NCBI RefSeq assembly: GCF_028550435.1
Contig: NZ_JAQQKV010000001.1
Location: forward strand, 186,001 to 250,000
Direction: 5' to 3'
Origin: Asticcacaulis machinosus
Lineage (GTDB): Bacteria > Pseudomonadota > Alphaproteobacteria > Caulobacterales > Caulobacteraceae
Length of the DNA: 64,000 bases
The notes beneath the pieces were generated by a model, which saw only the letters and a program-made list of their open reading frames with translations, did no database searches and was not told where the DNA came from. Positions 19,885 through 31,601 of the stretch are shown piece after piece. How positions within the stretch are numbered: position 1 is the stretch's first letter; each line of letters starts with the position of its first letter. A program made the position numbers and the translations under genes.

Positions 19885-20038
19885 GACTTATTTGAGACGG
19901 TTTTCGCTGCGCGCACCTCTGATGGGGATAAATGCGCATCAGACCGCTTCAATGACTTGACTTCTGAAGCGGAGGCGGGCAAAGGCTCACCTCCACTTCA
20001 GAGACCGCACAGATATATGATGTCATGCGGTTTTAAGG

Positions 20039-20114
20039 GGGCGATTAGCTCAGCTGGCAGAGCGGCTCGTTTACACCGAGTAGGTCGGCGGTTCGATCCC
20101 GTCATCGCCCACCA
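20039..20114 (+). tRNA. tRNA-Val (anticodon UAC), integration site of the island
   Basis: A 76-base tRNA with encoded CCA. The acceptor stem GGGCGAT pairs with ATCGCCC. The anticodon loop TTTACAC gives UAC, reading GUA and GUG. The T arm contains TTCGATC. The 3' end (from 20098) is repeated at 30868, marking it as the attachment site of the genomic island that follows. The tRNA itself is complete, so integration restored it. Confidence 0.97.
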
Positions 20115-20115
20115 A
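20098..20115 (+). repeat. attL of the tRNA-Val island
   Basis: The 18 bases cccgtcatcgcccaccaa at the 3' end of tRNA-Val recur exactly at 30868-30885. The match ends one base after CCA plus A. This is the usual geometry for tyrosine-integrase insertion at a tRNA 3' end, and an integrase fragment lies next to it. Confidence 0.88.
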
Positions 20116-20166
20116 CCCCTTGATTCCATTGAATTTTCCGAAAATAATCGTCGAAATGAGGCGCTT

Positions 20167-20268
20167 TGTTGCCCCGTTTTGTATCACCAGACGATTTCCG
20201 GACAGCCAATTTCCATAATAGAATCAAACAGTAACGGACAGGCGACTGTTGCCCCGTTCAGTAGCACC
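20167..20268 (+). repeat. Pair of near-identical direct repeats next to attL
   Basis: Two 22-base repeats start at 20167 and 20247, exactly 80 bases apart. Both begin TGTTGCCCCGTT and end CACC; they differ at three internal positions. Their place between the attachment site and the integrase gene suits arm-type integrase or excisionase binding sites. This is inference from position only. The surrounding 20116-20433 holds no other supported feature. Confidence 0.5.
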
Positions 20269-20433
20269 GCCGGGCAAAGCCGGGCCTCCCGACTGTTTGG
20301 GCATCGTCGGACGACATCATCCTCAAAAACAATGGCCAAACCATCGATCCACGGTTCGTCGAGACCGTCCGGGATGGTCGAAACAGATCGCCCCGGAAAT
20401 GACCGGCGCACATCATCTTCTCAAAAGCATGGG

Positions 20434-21033
20434 ATGTTCGTCAGGGGACGATCCTTCTATGTTCGATGGAAAATCCCCTCACGACTCCAACCCATTATCG
20501 GGCAGTCACATTTCGTTCGGTCGTTGAAGACAGGACGATGGGCCGATGCTGTCCGGATGATCCGGGTAGTCAGTGTGGACTTCGAAAACATGCTCAGGAA
20601 GGCCGAAGGAGCGTCTGCGGTAAGCGTCTCGTTCATTTCGACCCCAGCGCCCCACGAGATCGTTCAAGCCGGTCCAAGCCCTATCTCACAGCCAATAGAC
20701 GATGGGATGACGCTTCAACAGGTCTTCGACATGTTCATGAGCGATCCGTCGAAGAAACGAGCATGGACGACGATGGCACGATACCGTGAGACCATGGGAG
20801 TGGTGTTCGAGGTTATTCCGCCCGACACGCCTATCAAAAAGGTTGATCGCGTCCTATGTCGGCAGGTGTTGGAAATGGTTCAATGGCTTCCGGCCAACGC
20901 TACGAAACCCGTGCGTAGCCAATCTTCAATCAACGCTCCTGTAAAAGCCTATGTCCTTCAAATGTTGGGTTACGTGATGTCGCAAGCAATCCCTTGCACG
21001 GTCTGCATTTGCGTCACTGAACCCGTGAGATAA
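20434..21033 (+). pseudogene. Tyrosine recombinase (phage integrase), truncated
   Basis: The first 157 or so codons from the ATG at 20434 match the N-terminal half of tRNA-targeting integrases: a DUF6538-like start (VRGRSFYVRWKIPSRLQPII, then VRSLKTG), a linker, and a SAM-like core-binding domain (MTLQQVFDMFMSDP to EMVQWLPANATK). The protein normally continues with the catalytic domain carrying the R-HxRH-Y residues. Here native sequence stops at base 20905, where the 196-bp inverted repeat begins; the frame then runs through the repeat to a stop at 21033. No catalytic domain is found elsewhere in the island. The upstream start is uncertain; an in-frame ATG at 20332 also exists, and the frame is open back through the tRNA. 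Confidence 0.8.
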
Positions 21034-21101
21034 ATTGTCTCATGCAAAGGCTGGTCTGTCGAAGTATCCGGGACACTTTTTTCACGAGATTGACCCGGCC
21101 A
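20906..21101 (+). repeat. 196-bp inverted repeat, left copy
   Basis: This segment is an exact reverse complement of 29431-29626, compared base by base. It holds the upstream region and first eight codons of the serine recombinase gene in reverse orientation, and it interrupts the integrase. An imperfect recombination subsite-like palindrome, TGTC-N11-GACA, lies at 21057-21075. Confidence 0.95.
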
Positions 21102-21125
21102 AATGAACCGGCTGAACACAAACGC

Positions 21126-21251
21126 ATGATGGCAAATATCGATGCGGAATTTCAGGACGTGGCTGACACGCATGAAATCTGCCGCATTTATTATATCATG
21201 GCGAAAGAGGGGCTGGTTCCATCCGTAGGCTATTCCTACGCATTTCCGTAG
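21126..21251 (+). CDS. Short open frame of doubtful status
   Basis: Forty-one codons from an ATG at 21126 (the open frame extends back into the repeat). The reading, with MANIDAEFQDVADTHEICRI, looks protein-like, with balanced charge and aromatic residues, but there is no ribosome site and no recognised family. It directly abuts the inner edge of the left inverted repeat and may be the remnant C-terminus of a gene cut by the same event that truncated the integrase. Confidence 0.3.
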   Translation: MMANIDAEFQDVADTHEICRIYYIMAKEGLVPSVGYSYAFP

Positions 21252-21253
21252 GT

Positions 21254-21285
21254 CTGAAAAAGCCCGCCGTTCGTGCGGCGGGCTT
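21254..21285 (-). terminator. Terminator of the 21967-21289 operon
   Basis: AAGCCCGCCG pairs with CGGCGGGCTT around a six-base loop; on the minus strand it is followed by TTTTTCAG. It begins four bases past the stop of the membrane-protein gene. Confidence 0.88.
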
Positions 21286-21288
21286 CCA

Positions 21289-21810
21289 TCATGCGATCCC
21301 GACGTTCTCCGCTACCGCCTTGATGATCTGCCGGGCTTGCGCGTCGGTCAGATTCTTTCGCGCCGATCCGTTCCGTCGCCAGTCATCAAGTTCGTCGATC
21401 TCGATTTCATATTCATCGAAAAGGTAGCCGCACAAGTTCTCGAAATTTATCGCGCACCCAGTGCGGCCGACGTGCTCTTCCCAGCCTTCGATGATCTGGC
21501 GCTCCGCCATCCAGCGGGTGACGCGCCCCTCGGATCGGTGGTTCTTGAGGAACGATGCCGACAGGGCGTGAAGGACCCTGTCTAAAAACTCGAACTGGCC
21601 GCGAATGGTGACGGACAGTCCAATGTAGGCTGCGGCAACTATGAGGATCGTGAAGATGGCCGCGTTGTCGAGACCGTCCGATACCGTCTCCGGCGCGAAG
21701 ACGCCAACGACGGTTTGTTGGATGGCTAACGCCGAAATTATCATGGCGAAGCCGATTGCCGCCCATACAACGACAAAGAGCTTCTGGACCGGAGAAAGGC
21801 AGTTGATCAT
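21289..21810 (-). CDS. Two-helix membrane protein of unknown function
   Basis: A 173-residue protein with two hydrophobic helices near the N-terminus (about residues 10-32 and 47-68) joined by a short loop, then a soluble, charged domain of about 100 residues (EGRVTRWMAERQIIEGWEEHVG, then EYEIEIDELDDW) and a basic C-terminal helix. The family is not recognised. It starts seven bases after the stop of a 49-codon gene on the same strand and ends at a strong terminator, so the two form an operon within the island. It could anchor a cytoplasmic effector at the membrane, but nothing shows this. Confidence 0.7.
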   Translation of the reverse strand: MINCLSPVQKLFVVVWAAIGFAMIISALAIQQTVVGVFAPETVSDGLDNAAIFTILIVAAAYIGLSVTIRGQFEFLDRVLHALSASFLKNHRSEGRVTRWMAERQIIEGWEEHVGRTGCAINFENLCGYLFDEYEIEIDELDDWRRNGSARKNLTDAQARQIIKAVAENVGIA

Positions 21811-21817
21811 GCAGACC

Positions 21818-21967
21818 TCAGCGAACTTCCATTGGCGGATGGACTATGTTGCCGCGCCCGTATTGTGCTTCGAGTAGGTTCCGCGCATCGTTGGGATTGT
21901 TAGCCTGAATGCGGACTTCACATACCTGCCCTCTGGCAGTTCGCACGTGCGCTCGAAAGTTTCTCAT
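21818..21967 (-). CDS. Small conserved-looking protein of unknown function
   Basis: A 49-residue reading frame from the ATG at 21967 with a very strong GAGGGAGG ribosome site upstream. The product begins MRNFRAHVRTARGQVCEVRI and continues with QANNPNDARNLLEAQYG. This resembles small beta-alpha proteins seen on plasmids and islands, but no family name can be assigned. Seven bases separate its stop from the start of the membrane-protein gene, supporting co-translation. It is basic at the N-terminus. Confidence 0.65.
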   Translation of the reverse strand: MRNFRAHVRTARGQVCEVRIQANNPNDARNLLEAQYGRGNIVHPPMEVR

Positions 21968-22084
21968 CGGAATAGCCTCCCTCTAAAAGCAACTTCGCTA
22001 GGCGGCGCAATTTGCCACCAAAATATAACGAATTGGAATATCTTATGGCGCAATCTACTTAACATTGGGTCAACAAGGCGACCC

Positions 22085-22342
22085 ATGCGCAGTATCCATT
22101 CCAAGCCCTATTCGATGATTATCGATGCCTTGATCGTGGCGAGGAAGGCTGCACCCTTGACGCAGGTGGAACTGGCAAAAATCTGGGGTAAGAAACAGCC
22201 GACGATCACCAAGATTGAACAGTGCGAACGCAGAATCGATATGGCCGAGTTTCTTGAACTCTGCATCATCCTCAATACCAATCCGACTGACATCCTGCGT
22301 GAGGCGCATCTGGAAATGAAGCGTTCAATGTTGTCTAGGTAA
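22085..22342 (+). CDS. XRE-family helix-turn-helix regulator
   Basis: Eighty-five residues from the ATG at 22085. Residues about 18-70 form a Cro/C1-type HTH (TQVELAKIWGKKQPTITKIEQCERRIDMAEFLELCIIL), with the conserved Q-x-x-L-A and recognition-helix pattern. The frame is open back to 21947 without a better start. Its 3' end overlaps by eight bases the end of the convergent 118-residue gene. It may control the island's own genes; no target can be shown. It is not adjacent to the methyltransferases, so it is less likely than the HigA-type protein to be their controller. Confidence 0.78.
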   Translation: MRSIHSKPYSMIIDALIVARKAAPLTQVELAKIWGKKQPTITKIEQCERRIDMAEFLELCIILNTNPTDILREAHLEMKRSMLSR

Positions 22343-22691
22343 CGCTGCCTTTGACGTTATCCAGTGCTGCTGAACCAAACAGAACCGCCGCTTCTGCTTC
22401 TGTAGCAAGCCTTTCATCGAGCACTCGCAGATGGTTCTCTTCGATGTCCTGCCATTTTAGAAGATCGATCACGCGCGCTTCGACAAGCACTTCCATCGCG
22501 TATATCTGACCTGAAGCCGTCCGAATGGTTGTGAAGTCTGGCAGATCAGACAAAGCGTGCCACTGGGCCTGAGCACCGATCCGACGGTTCAGACATTGAA
22601 AAGCTTCCAAGAAATTTGGCTGACCGTCGCCTCGCGCCAAGACTCTAAAATCAATCACCCATGCAAGTTGGTTTGTCGCGCTGGAACCCAT
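22335..22691 (-). CDS. Hypothetical island protein, 118 residues
   Basis: A soluble acidic protein with no recognised family. It starts MGSSATNQLAWVIDFRVLARG and ends with a helix rich in alanine and glutamate. There are no membrane segments, signal peptide or metal motifs. The ribosome site is weak. It converges on the XRE regulator with an eight-base overlap of the stops, an arrangement that suggests mutual interference in transcription. It may be a real gene because codon use is even over the whole length. Confidence 0.5.
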   Translation of the reverse strand: MGSSATNQLAWVIDFRVLARGDGQPNFLEAFQCLNRRIGAQAQWHALSDLPDFTTIRTASGQIYAMEVLVEARVIDLLKWQDIEENHLRVLDERLATEAEAAVLFGSAALDNVKGSVT

Positions 22692-22852
22692 GAGAAAATT
22701 CTCGCACGGAACCCGAATCTGTCAACGCATCCAGATGTAGAAACACCCCCGCCAAAGCGAAATATGCGAAATTCATATATTTTTATATATGCGATTTTAG
22801 AATAATAATGCCGTAGTGCTCAATCACTTCATACTTACGCCGGAGGACCAAC

Positions 22853-23020
22853 CTGTCATCACAACCTAATCTCCCCAGCTTCGACGCCTGCTTCCAGAAC
22901 TGGCTCAACGCTCAGTCCGACGATGACTTGCGCCGGGCTTTGGACGAGGATCGCGGCGAGATGATCCGTGAGAGGGTGATAGCGGAGATTGAGCGGCGGA
23001 CAGGAATTATGAAACCTTGA
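22853..23020 (+). CDS. Possible 55-codon gene with a CTG start
   Basis: A perfect GGAGG at 22842-22846 lies six bases before a CTG that opens a 55-codon frame ending at TGA 23018-23020. The product (SSQPNLPSFDACFQNWLNAQ, then a highly charged helix with LRRALDEDRGEMIRERV) reads as a plausible small helical protein. No ATG, GTG or TTG in this frame fits the ribosome site; an in-frame ATG at 22808 meets a stop at once. CTG starts are rare, so this is tentative. Confidence 0.4.
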   Translation: MSSQPNLPSFDACFQNWLNAQSDDDLRRALDEDRGEMIRERVIAEIERRTGIMKP

Positions 23021-23049
23021 TAACCTTTTCCTGTATAATATTTGATAAA

Positions 23050-24291
23050 TTATAAGTAATTATCACGCCAAGCAATGTTTGCAGGATTTATAAATGGCGG
23101 ATACGTTACCCCTTCAGGTATGAATCCATAATTTGCGCTGCTGGCCACATTGTCAGATAGCATGATACTTCCATCTATCCTTAGCCTTATGTTGCCAGAG
23201 TCAAATAAGCGGTGAATGTCGATACGTAGACAAATGCCATTATTTTCATCATCCGATCCGCCGTTCTTAACCGGGACTATGTGAGCAGCTTCGAGTATTT
23301 CAGGAATTTTTTCGCCAGTAATGAAGCAAGTCCGCTCATAAGCATTCAAAACGCGCGATCGAAATTTTGACTGTCCTGTCCGTGCTAATACAGTGGTCAT
23401 TACTCGGGTGCGTTCAATTATAGATGGCAACGATGAGTGTCGAACATCGTCTACAGCCCTTGCTGCACTAGCATCGTCCTCGAAAATCGATTCCTTTGAT
23501 GGCGCGCTGACTGATTCAACGTCAAACAATTCATCCATAACGAATTTTTGCTTCGAAACGTGCACTCCTGCCCCAGCTTCCAACCTCAGCAATCCAAAGT
23601 TTGCCAAGAAAAGAAGAAACTCCCTTGCAAGCCTACGGTCATTGTCCATGGGAGCGCAATCTGGCCAGCCATGAACAATAGAAGGATCAGCCCTATATCC
23701 GAATAGCATAGAAGCTATTGTATCGACAGAAGCTTTGGCACCCGCCAATGGTATTACAACCTTGACCAATTCTTCGTTGGTTAGATATGCGGCCGACGCC
23801 CCGGAATTGCGGCCTAATTTTTCAATAATTTCTAAAATCAGTTTTAACGGGCGAATTTCGAGGTTTGCTTCTCTCCACTTATCAATTTCATCGCTTGAGT
23901 AAGTTGCTACGTTGGGTAGCATCGTTTGCTGCACCATTAGTGCGGCAAACTCTGCCTGAGTAATATATCCGTCAGCTACCCGTCGTCCCAATGGCGTCAG
24001 TTGAATTAATCCTCGACGCGCCGAGGTTAAAAGCCCAGTTCCACGCCAGTATTGTCCCGAATTTCTGAACAGATTTCTGCTCGGGTCGCGCGCCAAGGTG
24101 ACAGAGGACTCTGTCTCTTCTTGCACGATTTGCAATGTGTCTTTGAGTCTTGGATCGGCGAAAACCCGCCCCTCATGACGGCCAAGCGCCCGCAGCACAC
24201 CAAGAAAAACTGGCGCTTCAAGTAACCCTTCGCTGGGCTGAACACTAAGCCACCGCCACTTGTAGGTATCAAATGGCTTGATCGGCGTCAT
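23050..24291 (-). CDS. HNH restriction endonuclease
   Basis: A 413-residue protein. Residues about 318-365 form an HNH nuclease domain: CFITGEKIPEILEAAHIVP supplies a first cysteine and the catalytic histidine, then NGICLRIDIHRLFD supplies the asparagine and final histidine. The N-terminal 270 residues look like helical DNA-recognition and winged-helix-like segments (ITQAEFAALMVQQT). Its start overlaps the end of the upstream methyltransferase gene by four bases, making it the last gene of a four-gene restriction-modification operon. The reading as the cognate type II endonuclease rests on this context and the HNH motif; the target sequence is unknown. Confidence 0.88.
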   Translation of the reverse strand: MTPIKPFDTYKWRWLSVQPSEGLLEAPVFLGVLRALGRHEGRVFADPRLKDTLQIVQEETESSVTLARDPSRNLFRNSGQYWRGTGLLTSARRGLIQLTPLGRRVADGYITQAEFAALMVQQTMLPNVATYSSDEIDKWREANLEIRPLKLILEIIEKLGRNSGASAAYLTNEELVKVVIPLAGAKASVDTIASMLFGYRADPSIVHGWPDCAPMDNDRRLAREFLLFLANFGLLRLEAGAGVHVSKQKFVMDELFDVESVSAPSKESIFEDDASAARAVDDVRHSSLPSIIERTRVMTTVLARTGQSKFRSRVLNAYERTCFITGEKIPEILEAAHIVPVKNGGSDDENNGICLRIDIHRLFDSGNIRLRIDGSIMLSDNVASSANYGFIPEGVTYPPFINPANIAWRDNYL

Positions 24292-25256
24292 GCTGCTTCC
24301 GACACGTTCGATTCTTTAACCGCTTTATTAGCACTCATGAGCATAGTGCCTATAGCTTTACCCAGCAGCGGTGGCACAGCGTTAGCTATTTGGCGATACG
24401 CGGACGTTTTAGTTCCTGCGAACACAAAGTCGTCAGGAAATGATTGAACGGCTGCAAGTTCCCGTGCCGTCATGCGGCGGTGATTGTTGGGATGGTGAAG
24501 CACCACAACGCCACCTTTTTCGTCACCTCTTGCCGTTACGGTAGGAGAAGGACGGTCTGCCTCTATGTAACGGTGCCCCAAATGCCCATTAAAACGCAAC
24601 TTGTAACGAGAGCATTGATGGTTAGGGATGTTTAATCCGTCTTCAGGCTCAGGAAAATGTGCAAGGGCCTTACCGACCGTGAACCAAGGCTTTAACTTAT
24701 TAACGCTTGCAGAATCCGGCGACGTATGGGTTGGCTTCGGAGGGAAAGAAAGCGTGTCTGGCACGTCTTTCCGCACACCGACAATAATTACTCTCATCCG
24801 AGCTTGGGGCACCCCGTAGTCGGCGGCGTTTACAACTTGATAGTTGACCCGGTAGCCCAACCCTTCGAACTCTTCAACAATACGCCGAAGTATTTCCCCT
24901 TTGCCGATTGAAGCCAGACCCTTTACATTTTCCCCGACAAAGTAGCGTGGTCTTTTGTCCCTTACGACGCGAACAAGCTCTCTATAGAGTGAATTGCGAG
25001 GATCACTCATGGTGCGCCCCCAATTTGCTACCGAAAACCCTTGGCAGGGGAAACCACCTACCACGACGTCACAATCTGGAATTTCAAAACTTTTAATTTC
25101 GCATATACTGCGCGTGTCTATGTGGTCGCCAATGTTATTGCGGTATGTTGATGCAGCATCTGCAAAAATGTCATTCGCCCAAACGATTTCCATACCCGCT
25201 TGGATCAATCCAAGGTCAAGCCCTCCCGCTCCAGAGAACAATGAGACGACTTTCAT
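24288..25256 (-). CDS. DNA (cytosine-5) methyltransferase, second copy
   Basis: A 322-residue C5-cytosine methyltransferase with all main motifs: SAM-binding motif I FSGAGGLDLG (7-16), catalytic motif IV GGFPCQGFS with Cys71, motif VI ENV (109-111), motif VIII QARMR (151-155), and motif X-type QIANAVPPLLGKAIG near the C-terminus. The target-recognition region (about 165-260) differs from that of its upstream neighbour although the first 80 residues are nearly superimposable. Its ATG shares one base with the stop of the upstream gene, and its end overlaps the HNH gene by four bases. Methylation presumably protects one strand of an asymmetric site. Confidence 0.95.
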   Translation of the reverse strand: MKVVSLFSGAGGLDLGLIQAGMEIVWANDIFADAASTYRNNIGDHIDTRSICEIKSFEIPDCDVVVGGFPCQGFSVANWGRTMSDPRNSLYRELVRVVRDKRPRYFVGENVKGLASIGKGEILRRIVEEFEGLGYRVNYQVVNAADYGVPQARMRVIIVGVRKDVPDTLSFPPKPTHTSPDSASVNKLKPWFTVGKALAHFPEPEDGLNIPNHQCSRYKLRFNGHLGHRYIEADRPSPTVTARGDEKGGVVVLHHPNNHRRMTARELAAVQSFPDDFVFAGTKTSAYRQIANAVPPLLGKAIGTMLMSANKAVKESNVSEAA

Positions 25257-26206
25257 TACGCAACCTCTTTAAGGATTGAAGTTTTTGCAAGCTGTTGCCC
25301 TAAAGCTTTCGCAAAAAGAACAGGAACGGCATTACCCACTTGGCGGTAACAGGAGTTCATCCCTCCAATGAACTCGAATTTCAGGGGAAATGCCTGTATA
25401 AGTGCTTGTTCTCGAATAGACATACGGCGATGATTTCTTGGGTGCTGAATTGCACAAACCCCTCCCTTGCCATTGCCTCTCGCAAGAATGGTCGGGGAAG
25501 GTTTGTTTGGGTCAGTGGTTCGGTGGCCCGTAAAATTCCGGTTGGTGACTTTGTATTTTGAAAAAACGTGGTTAGGCAGCTCGTTTGTGGAGCCGGGTTC
25601 AGGTATATCTTCCAAACACTCACCAATCGTTAACCATGGCTTCAGCCCCCCGTTCATTTTTGAAGGGTCGCAATGCGTCGGGTCAGGGAAGATGAAATCT
25701 GCGGCCTCAGGCAGGTCTTGCCGCGTCCCAGCTATGATGACGCGACGACGCATTTGAGGAACGCCAAAGTCGGCCACGTTAAAAAGACGTTTAGAAACAC
25801 GATACCCTGCATCGGCAAAATCGGCTTCAATTTTCTGTATCGCACGACCGCCAGCAAGGCTAAGTATGCCCCTGACATTCTCTGCCAAAAAATATAGAGG
25901 CTGTTTTTCTCTAACGATCCGCAAGAATTCGAGGTAAAGTCTGTTACGTTCATCTTCGTCGAAGCGCAACATATTGGCTTGCGAAAATCCCTGACAGGGA
26001 AATCCACCTACAACGACATCGCAATCAGGGATTTGCATCGACGAAATTTTACATATGTCGCCCAAGACGATCTCGGTTCCGATGTTGCCTTTGTAAGTGG
26101 CTACCGCATCTGCGTCGAAATCATTGGCCCAGATAATTTCATGGCCAGCTTGGATAAGTCCAAGATCAAGGCCACCAGCCCCAGAAAATAGTGATACGAT
26201 CCTCAT
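25256..26206 (-). CDS. DNA (cytosine-5) methyltransferase, first copy
   Basis: A 316-residue C5-cytosine methyltransferase, paralogous to the gene downstream. Motif I FSGAGGLDLG, the catalytic PCQ with Cys71, ENV at 109-111, QMRRR motif VIII and the QVGNAVPVLFAKALG motif X are all in place, at the same positions as in the sister protein up to about residue 160. The central target-recognition region diverges. Its ATG overlaps the stop of the HigA-type gene by four bases. Two side-by-side C5 methyltransferases are known from type II systems with asymmetric sites (HgaI is an example), each copy modifying one strand; this fits here but is inferred. Confidence 0.95.
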   Translation of the reverse strand: MRIVSLFSGAGGLDLGLIQAGHEIIWANDFDADAVATYKGNIGTEIVLGDICKISSMQIPDCDVVVGGFPCQGFSQANMLRFDEDERNRLYLEFLRIVREKQPLYFLAENVRGILSLAGGRAIQKIEADFADAGYRVSKRLFNVADFGVPQMRRRVIIAGTRQDLPEAADFIFPDPTHCDPSKMNGGLKPWLTIGECLEDIPEPGSTNELPNHVFSKYKVTNRNFTGHRTTDPNKPSPTILARGNGKGGVCAIQHPRNHRRMSIREQALIQAFPLKFEFIGGMNSCYRQVGNAVPVLFAKALGQQLAKTSILKEVA

Positions 26207-26526
26207 GCGGCTCGCCTTTGCTTTTTGGAAATTTCGATCATCGACGTCTGAATGGTCGGCAGCATATCGATCTGAGCACCGAGCTTTTTCTTCGCCAAAT
26301 CAATCTCATATTCTTTTTGGAGATTGAGCCAGAATTCTGGGCCGACGCAAAAAAAATGGCCAAGCCGCAAGGCAGTATCGCCGGTAATTGCCCGCTGACC
26401 GTTTATTATTTCAGTTAGCCGATTAGTTGGCACCTTTATGTGCCTTGCCAGTTCAGCGGCAGCCATATTGAGGGCTTTCAGCTTCATGCCCAGCTCGACG
26501 CCCGCATGGGTGCATTCTTTTAACAT
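26203..26526 (-). CDS. HigA-type XRE regulator heading the restriction-modification operon
   Basis: A 107-residue HTH protein of the HigA/VapI group: THAGVELGMKLKALNM, AAELARHIKVPTNRLTEIINGQRAITGDTALRLGHFF and the PEFWLNLQKEYEIDLA tail are diagnostic for addiction-module antitoxins. No HigB toxin lies upstream or downstream: the 220 bases before it contain no toxin-like frame in any reading, and the gene after it is a methyltransferase that overlaps it by four bases. Its position fits a controller (C) protein of a restriction-modification system, which usually belongs to a different XRE group. A toxin-less antitoxin recruited as controller is the simplest reading. Confidence 0.85.
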   Translation of the reverse strand: MLKECTHAGVELGMKLKALNMAAAELARHIKVPTNRLTEIINGQRAITGDTALRLGHFFCVGPEFWLNLQKEYEIDLAKKKLGAQIDMLPTIQTSMIEISKKQRRAA

Positions 26527-26642
26527 GGCGACGCAATCCCAGAATCAAATCGAATCAATGAATAAGTCTTTCTTGCCGATATGCATTACGTCAAGCGTAA
26601 CTCTGGCAATTATGCTCTCCGCGCAACGAGCAACTTATCTCC

Positions 26643-26665
26643 AACAAATCAGTTCCCTATTTGTT
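26643..26665 (-). promoter_or_regulatory. Inverted-repeat operator over the restriction-modification promoter
   Basis: AACAAAT and ATTTGTT form a perfect 7-bp inverted repeat with a 9-base spacer, 117-139 bases upstream of the HigA-type start. A consensus -35 hexamer TTGACA (minus strand, 26686-26681) lies just upstream, so the expected -10 position falls inside the repeat. This is where an autoregulating repressor would bind. Confidence 0.5.
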
Positions 26666-26680
26666 CCAATAATGAGCGGT

Positions 26681-26686
26681 TGTCAA
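26681..26686 (-). promoter_or_regulatory. -35 element of the restriction-modification operon
   Basis: TTGACA on the minus strand, a perfect -35 hexamer. The -10 counterpart 16-18 bases on is poor (ACAAAT or AAATAG) and overlaps the inverted repeat. Confidence 0.4.
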
Positions 26687-26746
26687 TAATTTTGGGTCAG
26701 GTAACTGGGTGTAGGTCAACCGGGAAGGAGCACCGCCTTCAAACTG

Positions 26747-27010
26747 CTAGATGCTTTCAGATTCTATGAAAAGTGAAATGCCGTTTGGAATTGTCTCTTT
26801 AGCACGTTTTGAAGAACCGTTGGCATCGACCGCATCGAATATCACCCTCTCTAGCTCGGCGCGTCTCTCATCGAGTTCATCGTTCCAAATTGCAACGACA
26901 GCATGGTCACTGATATTATGATCTGCCTGATATAAAGCTATAGCGCTGGCAGCTTTTTCCTCGTCGGTATAGTCATAAAGCCTGTCGGCTATATCCACAG
27001 TGATGGACAT
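26747..27010 (-). CDS. Hypothetical acidic island protein, 87 residues
   Basis: An acidic, helical, soluble protein starting MSITVDIADRLYDYTDEEKA; the ATG has AAGGAT at a suitable distance. No family is recognised. It lies 71 bases after the stop of the large P-loop gene on the same strand, probably in the same transcript, and about 60 bases before the restriction-modification promoter. No signal peptide or membrane segment. Confidence 0.6.
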   Translation of the reverse strand: MSITVDIADRLYDYTDEEKAASAIALYQADHNISDHAVVAIWNDELDERRAELERVIFDAVDANGSSKRAKETIPNGISLFIESESI

Positions 27011-27081
27011 TTTCTTATCCTTAGAAGTCTCATGGCGTAATGCAGGGGCGCTATTATTAATGTATACTACGAGATAACCGC

Positions 27082-28626
27082 CTAATCCAAGTCCTTCAAA
27101 AGCGGCATATCCTGTCCAGCCGCAAGCAGTGGGATAGCCTTGTCGACATATGAGATAAGTGGGTCCCGGCGTTTCTGCCAGCCCTTCAATTCGGTCGCAC
27201 TAAAGTCAGCCAAACGATTATACCCGGCAGCTACCGCCTTCCGCGCCCATTTCTCCACGAACTTCTTGTCGTCATTGCGTTTGGATCGTGCGGCAGACGC
27301 AGCCTTCATCTCGGCTAAGCGTTCTTCATCTGATTTCTCGACCAAGGTGGCGATCTTTCGGTTGATGGACGACATTGCGCTCGACCCCACATGGGTCAGC
27401 ACGACATTATTAAAACCGTTCTTATTCAGATGTTTCTGAACCGCCTCAGCCTGCGGCTTCTCATAGAGATAGATCAGATACGGTCCTGAATGGTCCCCGT
27501 TTCGGATGGCTCCGCGCATGATCATCTGACGGATTGCCTCGGTCTCTCGCGCATCAGTGATGTCAGCCGCCGTAATGTCCGTAACCTCGGTAATGGGTTT
27601 GTCGGTCGGCGTGTATTTGGCGCTGTAGATGAACGCACATTTCGTAAGATGTCGGAATTTGTTGAGACCCATCGCCAAAGGCGCAATGAACTCGCCACCA
27701 AACCGTCCTTGGAACCGTTTCTCGACACTCCCATTGGCTGACCAGAAACCGAGGTCAGGGTCGTGTTTGGATATGTAGTCAGCAACCTCGACAATAGCTT
27801 TGAGACCATCCTCGCTGTCCCAAAAGCTCGTGCTGCCGGTGTGTGAATCGGCGAAGTAGCGTATCTCAATTTCTGGCTGGCCGGTCCGGGGACGAGATAC
27901 ATCGGTCTCGACCAAGTGGAAAATATGCGAGAAGAAGAATGCCATCGCGCGGTAACCCAGACTACCTTTATAATTGGATGCCGAGATATAAATCTCATTG
28001 AAAGCAGACAGATACGTCGGAGACCAGAATGAAAACCAGCGGAAGGCTTTGCGGGCCTTGAGCGCCGCGTCCTCAATGAAAACTCCGGTCGGCCGCAATG
28101 CTTCTTTGAGGAACTTTTGTGCGTCTTTACTCAGATCGTTGTGGCGCGGTTTGTTCGCGGCTACGCCGTCCATCGTATAGTGCGTCCAGCCGTTGTTGCT
28201 ACCGGCCGGAACTAGGCCGTTTATGATCAGGTCGTAGGTCGCCCCTGCTTGAACCTGACCGGAGTGTAGGGTCGATGGGGCTTCATCGATCATCACGCTC
28301 CACCCTTGGAAGGCGTTGAAGGCATTCCCGATCAAGGTCTCGTGGGTGATGAACACGACGGCGTGGGGATGATGGGCATTGATCTCGTCCTTGAGCGCGA
28401 CGAGTTGGTCAAAGACCTTGCCATTGGTCTTACCCCCGGAATGAAGTCTCCGGATATACGGGATCAACCCTTCCTTCTTCGCCCGCGCTTCCTGTTCTTC
28501 GGCGAGTTCGATGGTCGGACACGCAAATAGATAACGCCCCGGCGTCATGGCCGCGACATTCCTGAGCTTATCAGTTTTCCCTGCACCTTGGTTGCCGGTG
28601 ATGACGTTGAGGGTTCGTTTAGCCAT
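27082..28626 (-). CDS. Large P-loop NTPase, DEAD-helicase-like, of unknown role
   Basis: About 514 residues from the ATG at 28626 (an upstream ATG at 28677 would add 17 atypical residues). Walker A is GNQGAGKTDK near residues 11-20, a PTIELAEEQEARAKK segment resembles helicase motif Ia, VVFITHETL is motif Ib-like, and MIDEAPS is a DEAD-type Walker B. A second helicase lobe is suggested by LIYLYEKPQAEAVQKHL. The C-terminal 80 residues are basic. Superfamily 2 helicase or plasmid-replication-type ATPase are the best guesses; no exact family is recognised. It is preceded by a long inverted repeat (28687-28735) and a gene-free region that might be its site of action. Confidence 0.7.
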   Translation of the reverse strand: MAKRTLNVITGNQGAGKTDKLRNVAAMTPGRYLFACPTIELAEEQEARAKKEGLIPYIRRLHSGGKTNGKVFDQLVALKDEINAHHPHAVVFITHETLIGNAFNAFQGWSVMIDEAPSTLHSGQVQAGATYDLIINGLVPAGSNNGWTHYTMDGVAANKPRHNDLSKDAQKFLKEALRPTGVFIEDAALKARKAFRWFSFWSPTYLSAFNEIYISASNYKGSLGYRAMAFFFSHIFHLVETDVSRPRTGQPEIEIRYFADSHTGSTSFWDSEDGLKAIVEVADYISKHDPDLGFWSANGSVEKRFQGRFGGEFIAPLAMGLNKFRHLTKCAFIYSAKYTPTDKPITEVTDITAADITDARETEAIRQMIMRGAIRNGDHSGPYLIYLYEKPQAEAVQKHLNKNGFNNVVLTHVGSSAMSSINRKIATLVEKSDEERLAEMKAASAARSKRNDDKKFVEKWARKAVAAGYNRLADFSATELKGWQKRRDPLISYVDKAIPLLAAGQDMPLLKDLD

Positions 28627-28686
28627 TGTGGTATAAGACCTTTTCAAGCAGGGTCGTGGTTCGCATGATGGTAGCATGATGCGGTT

Positions 28687-28735
28687 AAAAATATCTGACG
28701 GACATGTATTCTATATAAAAACGTCAGATATTTTT
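28687..28735. repeat. 14-bp perfect inverted repeat upstream of the P-loop gene
   Basis: AAAAATATCTGACG (28687-28700) and its exact complement CGTCAGATATTTTT (28722-28735) flank an A+T-rich 21-base centre containing TATATAA. It lies 60 bases upstream of the gene start. It could be an operator, or an origin-type element recognised by the P-loop protein. Confidence 0.65.
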
Positions 28736-28740
28736 TGACG

Positions 28741-29430
28741 AGGACGGGCCTATACGAGTGGATGCCCCGGCAGGAACGAGTAAAGGCCACGACCTCATCC
28801 CGGAGGCGGTAAAGCCGCAGGCGATGCCCGGCTCCGTTCAGGCGTTGAACATGATCCTCTCAATGACTTAGACCGGCCTTGAGGCTTTGAGGATGAGTGA
28901 TGCGTCGCAGCAGCCGCCATGTCAGCCCTTGAGGGGCGACCTGTTGGCCGCTGGTAGAGAACAAGCCCCTTCGACCATCCTTTAATGCGCTATTGCTCCG
29001 CTTCGCTCCACAACACCGCATACACAGCATCCCCGAAGCCACCTGTTCCCGGCTGTGCCTATGACTTGATTCAAGAAATCGAGGTCTGGAAGACCCGGCT
29101 GACAAGGGACTGTGTGGCATTATGGCCTTCGGCCGGTGCCCGGTCGCCGGGCGATGGCGATCAATGGCTCATTGTCCCGCCAGTCGGCTGCGACGCCAGC
29201 CAGCGAGAGGATCAGCGCAGGTTCCACCTGCGGTGATCATCGAGTGCTGGATCGACCACTATGATGTGCCGAAGGACTTGGTGGACATCATCGAAGGCCC
29301 GGCCTTAAACGATTGACTACCTCATGGCCAGACCGCCGTTCCTTGTTGCCTCTTCATTGCCCAGTCAAGTTCGCCGGGGCCGCAGGCCCCCCTCATGACC
29401 AGACACGCACGTCAGGACTGGGGAGTAGCA
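28741..29430. other. Gene-poor island segment
   Basis: About 690 bases with no supported gene. Short frames (28985-29236 and 29122-29316 on the plus strand) show no family and no good ribosome site. Text in two different frames (VPGCAYDLIQEIEVWKTR, later ECWIDHYDVPKDLVDIIEG) reads protein-like and may be a frameshifted remnant. Several short GC-rich hairpins occur. Confidence 0.4.
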
Positions 29431-29626
29431 TGGCCGGGTCAATCTCGTGAAAAAAGTGTCCCGGATACTTCGACAGACCAGCCTTTGCATGAGACAATTT
29501 ATCTCACGGGTTCAGTGACGCAAATGCAGACCGTGCAAGGGATTGCTTGCGACATCACGTAACCCAACATTTGAAGGACATAGGCTTTTACAGGAGCGTT
29601 GATTGAAGATTGGCTACGCACGGGTT
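29431..29626 (-). repeat. 196-bp inverted repeat, right copy
   Basis: Exact reverse complement of 20906-21101. It contains the upstream region, ribosome site and first eight codons of the serine recombinase gene, so it probably includes that enzyme's own recombination (res-like) site. Confidence 0.95.
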
Positions 29627-30217
29627 AGCACCCATGATCAGACGACCAACATGCAGATGGATGCTCTGATCGAGCATGGGGTGAAGGTCGAGGACATCTA
29701 CCAAGATGTCGCCAGTGGGAAGAAGGATGATCGCCCGGCACTGATGGCCTGTCTCAAAGCCCTGCGTGAAGGCGATACGCTGGTCATCTGGAAGCTCGAC
29801 CGCTTGGGCCGCGATCTGCGTCACCTGATCAACACCGTGCATGACCTGACCCACAGGGACATCGGCCTTCGTGTCCTTGCCGGGCATGGAGCCAGTATCG
29901 ATACGACGACGGCGAGCGGCAAGCTCATCTTCGGCATCTTCGCCAGTCTCGCCGAGTTCGAACGGGAATTGATCCGGGAGCGCACTGTTGCCGGACTACA
30001 GGCTGCCCGCGCCCGTGGACGACTGGGAGGTCGCAAGTTCGCCCTGACACCATCTGGCTTGCGCCGGGCACAAGCCGCAATGATGCACCGGGATACGAAC
30101 GTCGCCGACCTGTGCGCCGAACTGGGCATCACCCGGAACACGCTTTACAGGCTCGTCAGTCCCAACGGGCAGCTACGGCCTGACGGCGAGAAGTTGCTCA
30201 AGCTGGCCGGGAAGTGA
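29603..30217 (+). CDS. Serine recombinase (resolvase/invertase family)
   Basis: A 204-residue small serine recombinase starting at TTG 29603 with AGGAG six bases upstream. The catalytic Ser9 lies in GYARVSTHDQ, followed by the conserved KLDRLGRD arginine-containing segment, FASLAEFERELIRERT and a long E helix. The C-terminal HTH is VADLCAELGITRNTLYRLV. Length and layout match Tn3-type resolvases and Hin/Gin-type invertases, which this call cannot separate. The first eight codons lie inside the 196-bp repeat; the repeat ends just before the catalytic serine codon. With sites in inverted orientation such enzymes can flip the DNA between. Confidence 0.93.
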   Translation: MKIGYARVSTHDQTTNMQMDALIEHGVKVEDIYQDVASGKKDDRPALMACLKALREGDTLVIWKLDRLGRDLRHLINTVHDLTHRDIGLRVLAGHGASIDTTTASGKLIFGIFASLAEFERELIRERTVAGLQAARARGRLGGRKFALTPSGLRRAQAAMMHRDTNVADLCAELGITRNTLYRLVSPNGQLRPDGEKLLKLAGK

Positions 30218-30322
30218 ACCTTTAAGTCCCACTTAATAGTTAGGCAGGCTTTCGTCATAAATCACCCCGGTCTGGGCGACGGAGCATAAATACATGGGCA
30301 CCCACGAAGAGGAGAAAAGCCC

Positions 30323-30691
30323 ATGCCCCAGACCTACATCACCCGAAGCGAGGAGTGGCTTCTAAGCTTCCTCCCAGCCGGTCAGTTCCATGCCGAAGAT
30401 CGACAGCTTTACCACGACCATGTGTCGCCCGGTCTGATCCGGGAACTGCTCAAGCACTATGATCACGACGAGGCCATCGGCCTCCTGACCTATGTTGTTG
30501 AGAGGATCGACATCCGCCTCGACCGGGCCAAGGATCGTCGCCTCAAATACGAACTGGCCTGCTACCGCTCATGGCTGATGAACATGCGTGGCCAGATCGC
30601 CGCGACCAACCGCGCAGAACCCGCCACAGGTCGTCATACAAGCCTCATGGGAGCCGTGAAGCGTATCATCGCGGGTCAGGCTCATCCATAA
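30323..30691 (+). CDS. Hypothetical island protein, 122 residues
   Basis: A soluble, charged, mainly helical protein (starting MPQTYITRSEEWLLSFLPAG, with many His, Asp and Arg residues) of no recognised family. A strong AGAGGAG ribosome site eight bases upstream supports it. It is the last gene before attR and follows the recombinase after 105 bases. A hairpin (AACGCTC with GAGCGTT, 30690-30710) begins at its stop codon and may end transcription, though no T-run follows. Confidence 0.65.
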   Translation: MPQTYITRSEEWLLSFLPAGQFHAEDRQLYHDHVSPGLIRELLKHYDHDEAIGLLTYVVERIDIRLDRAKDRRLKYELACYRSWLMNMRGQIAATNRAEPATGRHTSLMGAVKRIIAGQAHP

Positions 30692-30867
30692 CGCTCCCGG
30701 TCTGAGCGTTACCCCAGCCTCCCGGAGCCTGTCTCCAATAACCCGGCTTCGGGCGGTCTTTATAAACACGATACGCTTCCCCAGTCGGCGCGTTGCATGG
30801 TTCAATAAGGCATCCTTAGAAAACGGATCGCTTAATGAAAACCGAAGAAAATCAACATCATAGACAA

Positions 30868-30885
30868 CCCGTCATCGCCCACCAA
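30868..30885 (+). repeat. attR of the tRNA-Val island
   Basis: Exact 18-base copy of the tRNA-Val 3' end at 20098-20115, with no tRNA body in front of it. Sequence after it should be the original chromosomal DNA downstream of the tRNA. Confidence 0.88.
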
Positions 30886-30945
30886 ATATACTTCCCTCCA
30901 AAGTCCCTCGCTATGCTCGCTGTACTTTGTCGCGGGTAAGAACGG

Positions 30946-30986
30946 AAAAATCAGCTCGAAGCGGTTCTTCGCTGATTTTTGCTTTT
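30946..30986. terminator. Bidirectional terminator between island and miaE
   Basis: AAAAATCAGC pairs with GCTGATTTTT around a 15-base loop that can itself pair; T-runs follow on both strands. It serves miaE on the minus strand and was probably the native terminator of tRNA-Val before the island arrived. Confidence 0.75.
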
Positions 30987-30998
30987 TTATTATCCGTC

Positions 30999-31601
30999 TC
31001 AGTTTGTCGGTGTGCCGCTATGAAAGCGGAACTCTGTATCTGGAGCGGAAATCAGCGCCTGCTCAACCGGGCGGATGGCTTTGATACGATCTGCCACATC
31101 ATCGGCATCACCATAAAGATGCGCTAGCTTCAGATAGCCGGTGAAGTGCCGCCCCTCGCTTTCCAGCAAGCCTTTGTAGAATTTTCCCAGCTCGTCATCC
31201 AGATGAGGGTAAAGCGCGTTAAAGCGTTCGCAAGATCGCGCCTCGATAAAGGCTGAGATCACCAGTATATCGGTCAGCATGCCGGGCTCCGTCCGGCGTA
31301 CCATTTGCCGCAGACCGGCGGCGTAGCGCGACGCCGAAAGCGTGCGCAAAGGGACTCCGCGCTTTTTCATCAGCTTCATGACCTGCTCGTGATGCACCAG
31401 TTCTTCGCGGGCTAAGCGTGACATGGCATTCATAAGCGCTTCACGGGTATTGTACTTGGCCATCAGATTAAGTGCGTTGCTGGCCGCCTTATATTCACAG
31501 TTCTTATGGTCAAGAAGCAGCAGATCTTGATTGGCAATTGCGGCCTCAATCCAGGCCTGCGGTGTTGTCGAGCCCAAAAAGTCTGTAATCTCTGAAATCA
31601 T
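30999..31601 (-). CDS. miaE: tRNA-(ms2io6A)-hydroxylase MiaE
   Basis: A 200-residue ferritin-like diiron monooxygenase that hydroxylates the isopentenyl group of ms2i6A37 in tRNAs. The four-helix diiron ligands are visible: the NCEYKAA glutamate, EELVHHEQV (Glu and His), the SAFIEARSCERF glutamate and ESEGRHF with its Glu and His. Length is usual. It is a single gene next to the right end of the tRNA-Val island. Confidence 0.93.
   Translation of the reverse strand: MISEITDFLGSTTPQAWIEAAIANQDLLLLDHKNCEYKAASNALNLMAKYNTREALMNAMSRLAREELVHHEQVMKLMKKRGVPLRTLSASRYAAGLRQMVRRTEPGMLTDILVISAFIEARSCERFNALYPHLDDELGKFYKGLLESEGRHFTGYLKLAHLYGDADDVADRIKAIRPVEQALISAPDTEFRFHSGTPTN

Follow-up and report, generated by a model that had tools for sequence, protein, structure and literature searches.

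Inversion systems such as Hin and Gin work at short crossover sites (hix or gix) of about 26 bp, which are inverted and have no accessory subsites. The pair res-TniR is described as the cointegrate-resolving part of the transposons Tn5053 and Tn402 (PMC7765201), and genomic islands of the SGI1 family are reported to have a resolution system, shown to remove island multimers, with three subsites and a synapse topology that favours resolution of directly oriented sites over plasmid joining (PMC12217951). According to the same paper, some islands of that family carry the resolvase gene and a restriction-modification (R-M) system where others have a toxin-antitoxin system. Here we analysed 64,000 nucleotides of Asticcacaulis machinosus contig NZ_JAQQKV010000001.1 (hereafter the window, whose numbering is used throughout), in which an 8.3-kb segment with R-M genes is bounded by two inverted copies of the region upstream of a TniR-type serine recombinase gene. 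We consider it probable, with considerable room for doubt, that the left copy is a rearrangement scar in a tRNA-Val genomic island that carries a TniR/res module and an R-M cargo with two methyltransferases.

The locus resembles the Tn5053/Tn402 module in its recombinase, which is about 69-71% identical, and in its upstream region, which aligns over the accessory block; it differs in having a degenerate gene-proximal dyad and a second, inverted copy of the region. No tniABQ product or other Tni transposition protein was found among the ten island proteins scanned with Pfam; the 25-bp terminal repeats of the transposon were not searched for. As in the SGI1 family, there is an integrative island with its own serine resolvase and an upstream res-like region, and the R-M system recalls those that stand in for toxin-antitoxin genes in some members. 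SGI1 itself, as described, has a Tn3-like system and trmE as its usual target (PMC12217951), whereas the island here lies in tRNA-Val and has a TniR-type resolvase, a broken integrase and an inverted second res-like copy. With the Hin/Gin/Pin inversion systems, among them PinQ as reported in PMC12529663, the locus shares a small serine recombinase beside inverted copies that probably hold its site; unlike them, its region aligned with TniR res sites, its enzyme groups with TniR, and the promoter-like boxes of its arms face outward. In the open-licence literature we found no paper on an Asticcacaulis genomic island with restriction-modification, nor on an invertible R-M island.

The inverted repeat pair

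The two arms and the recombinase gene are as follows.

20906..21101, minus strand: left repeat arm, an inverted copy of the res-like region and 8 codons of tniR (repeat search, string check)
29431..29626, plus strand: right repeat arm, the res-like region and 8 codons of tniR (repeat search, string check)
29603..30217, plus strand: TniR-type serine recombinase, 204 aa, with Ser9 (Pfam Resolvase, 1e-44; identity to TniR-type loci; tree)

The first-pass annotation of this DNA had reported perfect 196-bp inverted repeats, and both their coordinates and their description held. A repeat search of the 64-kb window found 20906-21101 and 29431-29626 as the only long inverted pair, 196 nt long and 100% complementary, with a spacer of 8329 nt, and direct string comparison reconfirmed the identity at 196/196. 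The right arm extends from 172 bp 5′ of the recombinase start (TTG, 29603) to codon 8 and ends at 29626, where the adjoining codon is AGC, for Ser9; this agrees with the annotation, which described the right copy as the region upstream of a serine recombinase gene with its first eight codons, ending before Ser9. No third copy was found in a search of the organism's own genome (3.77 Mb, 10 contigs).

A perfect match of 196 nt is not due to chance. With no difference in 196 bp the divergence of the arms is below about 1.5% (rule of three), and the same stretch is 79% identical (about 21% divergence) to that of the metagenome-assembled genome Asticcacaulis sp. UBA2476 (locus L014). Either the duplication is recent, therefore, or recombination keeps the arms alike. 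The latter would be expected if RecA-mediated crossovers between the arms flip the segment at low frequency, giving a mixture of orientations with no regulatory purpose and keeping the arms identical while the stretch has diverged from L014. Identical inverted repeats generally permit such flipping by homologous recombination; the assembly has a single orientation. We regard this as a tentative possibility with a fair share of the probability, and one that is compatible with a scar.

Two other explanations of the pair were considered. Repeats can mislead assemblers, but the arms have different flanks on all four sides and lie inside a 1.86-Mb contig, and an assembly artefact is very improbable. 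Long perfect inverted repeats around a cargo might also be the terminal inverted repeats of an R-M transposon. This was rejected on the absence of a target-site duplication at the outer flanks, ACGCTACGA and AGCACCCAT; moreover, one arm runs into the coding sequence of the recombinase itself, no transposase was seen among the proteins scanned, and these two copies of the repeat are all that the genome holds, so we give this explanation hardly any credence.

The recombinase is of the TniR type

From 240 relatives of the recombinase, 80 loci were kept for comparison. The closest matches are the proteins of A. endophyticus and UBA2476 (91-92% identity), followed by a second A. endophyticus copy (88%); identity to the other 77 of the 80 loci is about 69-71%. 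For a tree of 10 proteins the named TniR was taken from the annotated tniA-tniB-tniQ-tniR mercury transposon on plasmid PB11. The window recombinase grouped with it (support 91/98), and two annotated phage invertases fell separately (85/85); none of the branches of this tree reached the star threshold. By identity and by tree it is thus a TniR-type recombinase, as in the Tn5053/Tn402 resolution module, and it scores below the NCBIfam cut-off for the Mpi invertase family. The ratio of nonsynonymous to synonymous substitution (dN/dS) of tniR is about 0.07 against L014 and 0.10 against A. endophyticus, and these low values indicate that the gene is kept by purifying selection.

The res-like region in the arms

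The upstream regions of the window and the 80 loci (81 in all) were reduced to 25 at 85% identity and then aligned; the row of L084 in this alignment is a wrong-strand region and is to be disregarded. A distal block, with the common form ACGGGTTAAGTGAC, was found within 4 substitutions in 21 of the 25 regions, window and UBA2476 included. A 28-bp gene-proximal dyad was found within 9 substitutions, also in 21/25; here UBA2476 is included and the window is not. Global alignment of the window region with that of PB11 (Tn5053-type) scored 62, as compared with a mean of 37.8 (standard deviation 6.9, maximum 57.6) in 500 shuffles. Alignment of the arms with TniR res regions, about 125 bp long, places the following putative subsites.

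29457..29519, plus strand: putative accessory res region (alignment with TniR loci)
21013..21075, minus strand: putative left copy of the accessory res region (mirror of 29457-29519)
29553..29580, plus strand: putative gene-proximal res subsite, 28 bp, degenerate (position by alignment)
20952..20979, minus strand: putative left copy of the 28-bp gene-proximal subsite (mirror of 29553-29580)

Judged by alignment, both arms carry the whole res-like region, and it is very probable that the recombinase has its own site within the 196-bp repeat; the choice of crossover subsite, and whether the res-like region still works, are matters of inference. The annotation had expected a recombination site inside the repeat. 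The accessory block, which aligns with the TniR loci, supports this; the degenerate 28-bp subsite next to the gene does not.

A tRNA-Val island with a broken integrase

The inverted-repeat segment lies between two short direct repeats, the left of which is at the 3′ end of a tRNA gene.

20039..20114, plus strand: tRNA-Val (TAC), insertion target of the island (ARAGORN; Rfam RF00005, 64.5 bits)
20098..20115, plus strand: attL core, 18 bp, at the tRNA 3′ end (direct repeat with 30868-30885; empty-site overlaps)
30868..30885, plus strand: attR core, 18 bp (direct repeat with 20098-20115; empty-site overlaps)
20419..20907, plus strand: remnant of a tyrosine-integrase gene, with a DUF6538 N-terminal domain (Pfam PF20172, 2.7e-11; 45% identity to a full-length relative)

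Three congeners (G002, G004 and G012) show the empty site: in each, the left-flank match and the right-flank match share exactly 18 bp. From the 18-bp att repeats and the empty sites we conclude that the segment sits inside a genomic island of about 10.8 kb in tRNA-Val. The island thus has direct att repeats, an integrase at its tRNA end and empty sites in relatives, as tRNA-integrated islands do, and its integrase is broken: similarity to two full-length relatives (45% and 43%) stops at base 20907, where the left arm takes over. There is no convincing trace of the catalytic C-terminal half in the window, nor was it found in the organism's own genome in one search, made without a positive control. 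An inversion that split the integrase gene would be provable if the C-terminal half lay at the other end of the segment; this half was not found in the window and the idea was dropped. Other islands of the genus also hold integrases that look truncated or internally deleted.

Gene order in related islands

Three features of the right part of the island are needed for the comparison.

27082..28677, minus strand: P-loop protein, named from sequence (distantly related to proteins of a plasmid and of other Caulobacteraceae)
28876..29430, plus strand: conserved stretch, probably non-coding, 5′ of the res-like region (conserved with L014, 77% over 28876-30747)
30323..30691, plus strand: 122-aa gene 3′ of tniR (also 3′ of tniR in L014 and A. 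endophyticus)

Among 299 genomes in the family search, UBA2476 is the one genome besides the organism's own that matched the inner block. Its related island (L014 3239-11280) is at tRNA-Gly(CCC) and is flanked by a direct repeat of 26 bp (96% identity). Compared with the window, 28876-30747 is in the same orientation (77%), and 21256-22804, 22878-22999 and a 41-bp piece of the P-loop gene are in the opposite orientation, so that an inversion separates the two lineages. The UBA2476 island ends with the same res, tniR and 122-aa gene as the window but has no left arm, and in both islands 28876-29430 lies beside res; the breakpoints of this inversion were therefore not the arms. In the search of related genomes for the opposite orientation, which the annotation had proposed, some of the segment was thus reversed in UBA2476, with other breakpoints and no left arm. 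The UBA2476 island also has a gene that is weakly methyltransferase-like (below the Pfam cut-off), and protein comparison gave no match to the R-M operon.

In three of six loci (L143, L144 and L146, of another Caulobacteraceae genus; not in L145, L147 and L148) the relative of the P-loop protein (25-26% identity) has a serine resolvase gene 1-2 kb away, in divergent orientation as in the window, and this resolvase shares 40-42% identity with the window's. This suggests that the pairing is a plasmid-type module. It also means that the older order could be that of the window, with the rearrangement in L014, and we make no claim as to the ancestral orientation. Relatives of the inner or end genes, by which the ancestral order might be fixed, were sought in viral contigs and none was found.

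Evidence on switching

The annotation had read the two inverted copies as an invertible layout of the Hin/Gin type. If so, TniR would recombine two inverted res sites and 21102-29430 would flip, varying expression of the R-M and flanking genes. The two identical res-like regions are indeed inverted, the recombinase is intact and conserved, its best match of solved structure is Gin, and part of the segment is opposite in L014. Against this reading, L014 lacks the left arm and keeps 28876-29430 beside res, so that its inversion did not use these ends. Sin, like other resolvases, is described as preferring directly repeated sites, and inversion is said to be blocked by its regulatory sites (PMC2764113); in the window the gene-proximal subsite is degenerate.

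A strand-aware scan for inverted partners was made on the 80 TniR loci with their flanking DNA, 41 of which span at least 20.5 kb. No near-identical inverted partner of the site region was found at any of the 80 in the flanking DNA scanned, while the left arm of the window was recovered as positive control. A second related recombinase is nearby in 26/80 and is on the other strand in 7. At two loci, L060 and L084, an oppositely facing TniR gene with 67-70% identity lies about 4 kb off, with 59 and 76 bp, respectively, in common with the site region (80% and 88%); such modules, then, do arise. With an enzyme that groups with TniR and no such partner in the DNA scanned around the relatives, the Hin/Gin analogy found no support.

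The annotation had also suggested that inversion could alter expression from outside promoters. The boxes in the arms that match the promoter consensus (29470-29498 and its mirror) are both directed outward, so inversion would not bring them in front of the restriction operon; the scan gave 14 matches as against 9.1 in shuffles (standard deviation 2.9). Nothing indicates a built switch. One driven by TniR is possible, a weakly supported reading that we hold to be unlikely. More doubtful still is its fuller form, in which a TniR-type resolvase has turned invertase through inverted duplication of a complete res and the 8.3-kb R-M block of a locked island flips under a resolution-type synapse.

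Origin of the left arm

The alternative that the annotation had itself mentioned, a scar of a past rearrangement with gene conversion keeping the copies identical, fits the data better than a switch, whether the identity is due to conversion or to a recent origin. In outline, the island would carry a TniR/res module, a type that resolves multimers or cointegrates, and this one most likely has, or had, multimer resolution as its role. The res-like region and the start of tniR would have been copied backwards at the break in the integrase gene, whose catalytic half was lost. The arms would be identical through a recent event or be maintained by conversion, and RecA may flip the 8.3 kb at some rate. 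The scar may have arisen by a recent inverted duplication, or be the remnant of a second, oppositely facing res-tniR module after deletion.

In the latter case an int(+) gene would have faced a tniR(-) gene, a deletion would have joined int to codon 8, and conversion would have equalised the res regions. A second locus of A. endophyticus (L139 8821-10748) has a comparable arrangement, in which a truncated integrase(+) is followed by a ParE-like toxin gene(-) and then by tniR(-); the oppositely facing TniR genes about 4 kb apart in L060 and L084 offer a further parallel, and on its inner side the repeat stops close to the limit of the block conserved in L014. Yet the second A. endophyticus copy has only tniR coding DNA in common with the window, not the upstream region, and identity of 100% requires conversion or a very recent duplication. 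This origin by deletion has some chance of being right, though we would not expect it.

Several observations weigh against a scar of a resolution module. The left block and the P-loop fragment have opposite orientations in the two islands, an outcome to be expected of a flipping segment. The left arm retains the res-like region in full, which a random fragment would not need to do, and on its inner side it stops 3 bp inside the block conserved with L014. The island as it was before the scar was not found among the relatives, so the event is not reconstructed. At the place of the dyad (29553-29580) the window has degenerate sequence with the same spacing, and the regions upstream of the two A. 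endophyticus TniR genes (88-92% identical) differ from that of the window and show neither distal block nor dyad. Finally, the best solved-structure match of the recombinase is Gin (143.9 bits, as against 97.7 for gamma-delta), though in the tree the enzyme falls with TniR and not in an invertase clade. The degenerate subsite and the A. endophyticus exception weigh against a switch and against a fully working resolution site alike.

Cargo genes and the R-M operon

The annotation placed a restriction operon, an XRE regulator, small genes and a P-loop protein inside the segment, and this description was confirmed. Besides the P-loop gene, the segment contains the following.

21105..21251, plus strand: 48-aa open stretch, perhaps the terminal part of a cargo gene truncated by the left arm (list of open reading frames)
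21289..21810, minus strand: 173-aa protein of unknown family (homologue in L014 with 85% identity, in opposite orientation relative to tniR)
21947..22342, plus strand: helix-turn-helix regulator of the Cro/CI type (Pfam HTH_3; 93% identical in L014)
22335..22691, minus strand: 118-aa protein (homologue in L014, 66% identity)
23050..24291, minus strand: HNH restriction endonuclease (Pfam HNH_2, 1.4e-11; PADLOC HNH, 1.4e-16)
24288..25256, minus strand: C5-cytosine methyltransferase (Pfam PF00145, 6.5e-74)
25256..26206, minus strand: second C5-cytosine methyltransferase (Pfam PF00145, 9.7e-72)
26203..26526, minus strand: HigA-family antitoxin-like regulator, first gene of the R-M operon (TIGR02607)

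The R-M operon on the minus strand thus consists of the HigA-like regulator, two C5 methyltransferases and the HNH nuclease, and neighbouring genes overlap by 1-4 bases. With methyltransferases and endonuclease in one operon it is, by predicted gene composition, a type II R-M system. Of the ten island proteins given to PADLOC, only the nuclease and the two methyltransferases had a match. The first gene matches the HigA family TIGR02607 with 74.4 bits (4.9e-21; cut-off 47.7); no HigB partner was identified among the proteins scanned, and the product may be the regulator of the R-M operon.

The P-loop protein had no match in Pfam, NCBIfam or PADLOC and no pattern match in viral contigs; it was found in 5 of 398 genomes of the order, the organism's own included. 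The 173-aa protein was found in one of 385 genomes of the class, which is the organism's own; UBA2476, which has this protein, is not among the matches of that draw. For the 122-aa gene the count was four of 299 family genomes, own included, with one match weak. The 48-aa stretch has no relatives in plasmids, phages or the 298 other family genomes. The conserved stretch 28876-29430, about 550 bp, has no evident reading frame in common with UBA2476, and a search for structured RNA there found none, as Rfam at E up to 1 over 19900-31200 matched tRNA only.

Significance

Were inversion of the segment true, the locus would be a switchable defence island, and it would put to the test whether a TniR-type resolvase in the chromosome fails to act on full-length res regions that are inverted. 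If the left arm is a scar, as we think probable, it records one way in which an island loses its mobility: the island's own resolution region was copied at the break of the integrase, with the resolvase still under selection.

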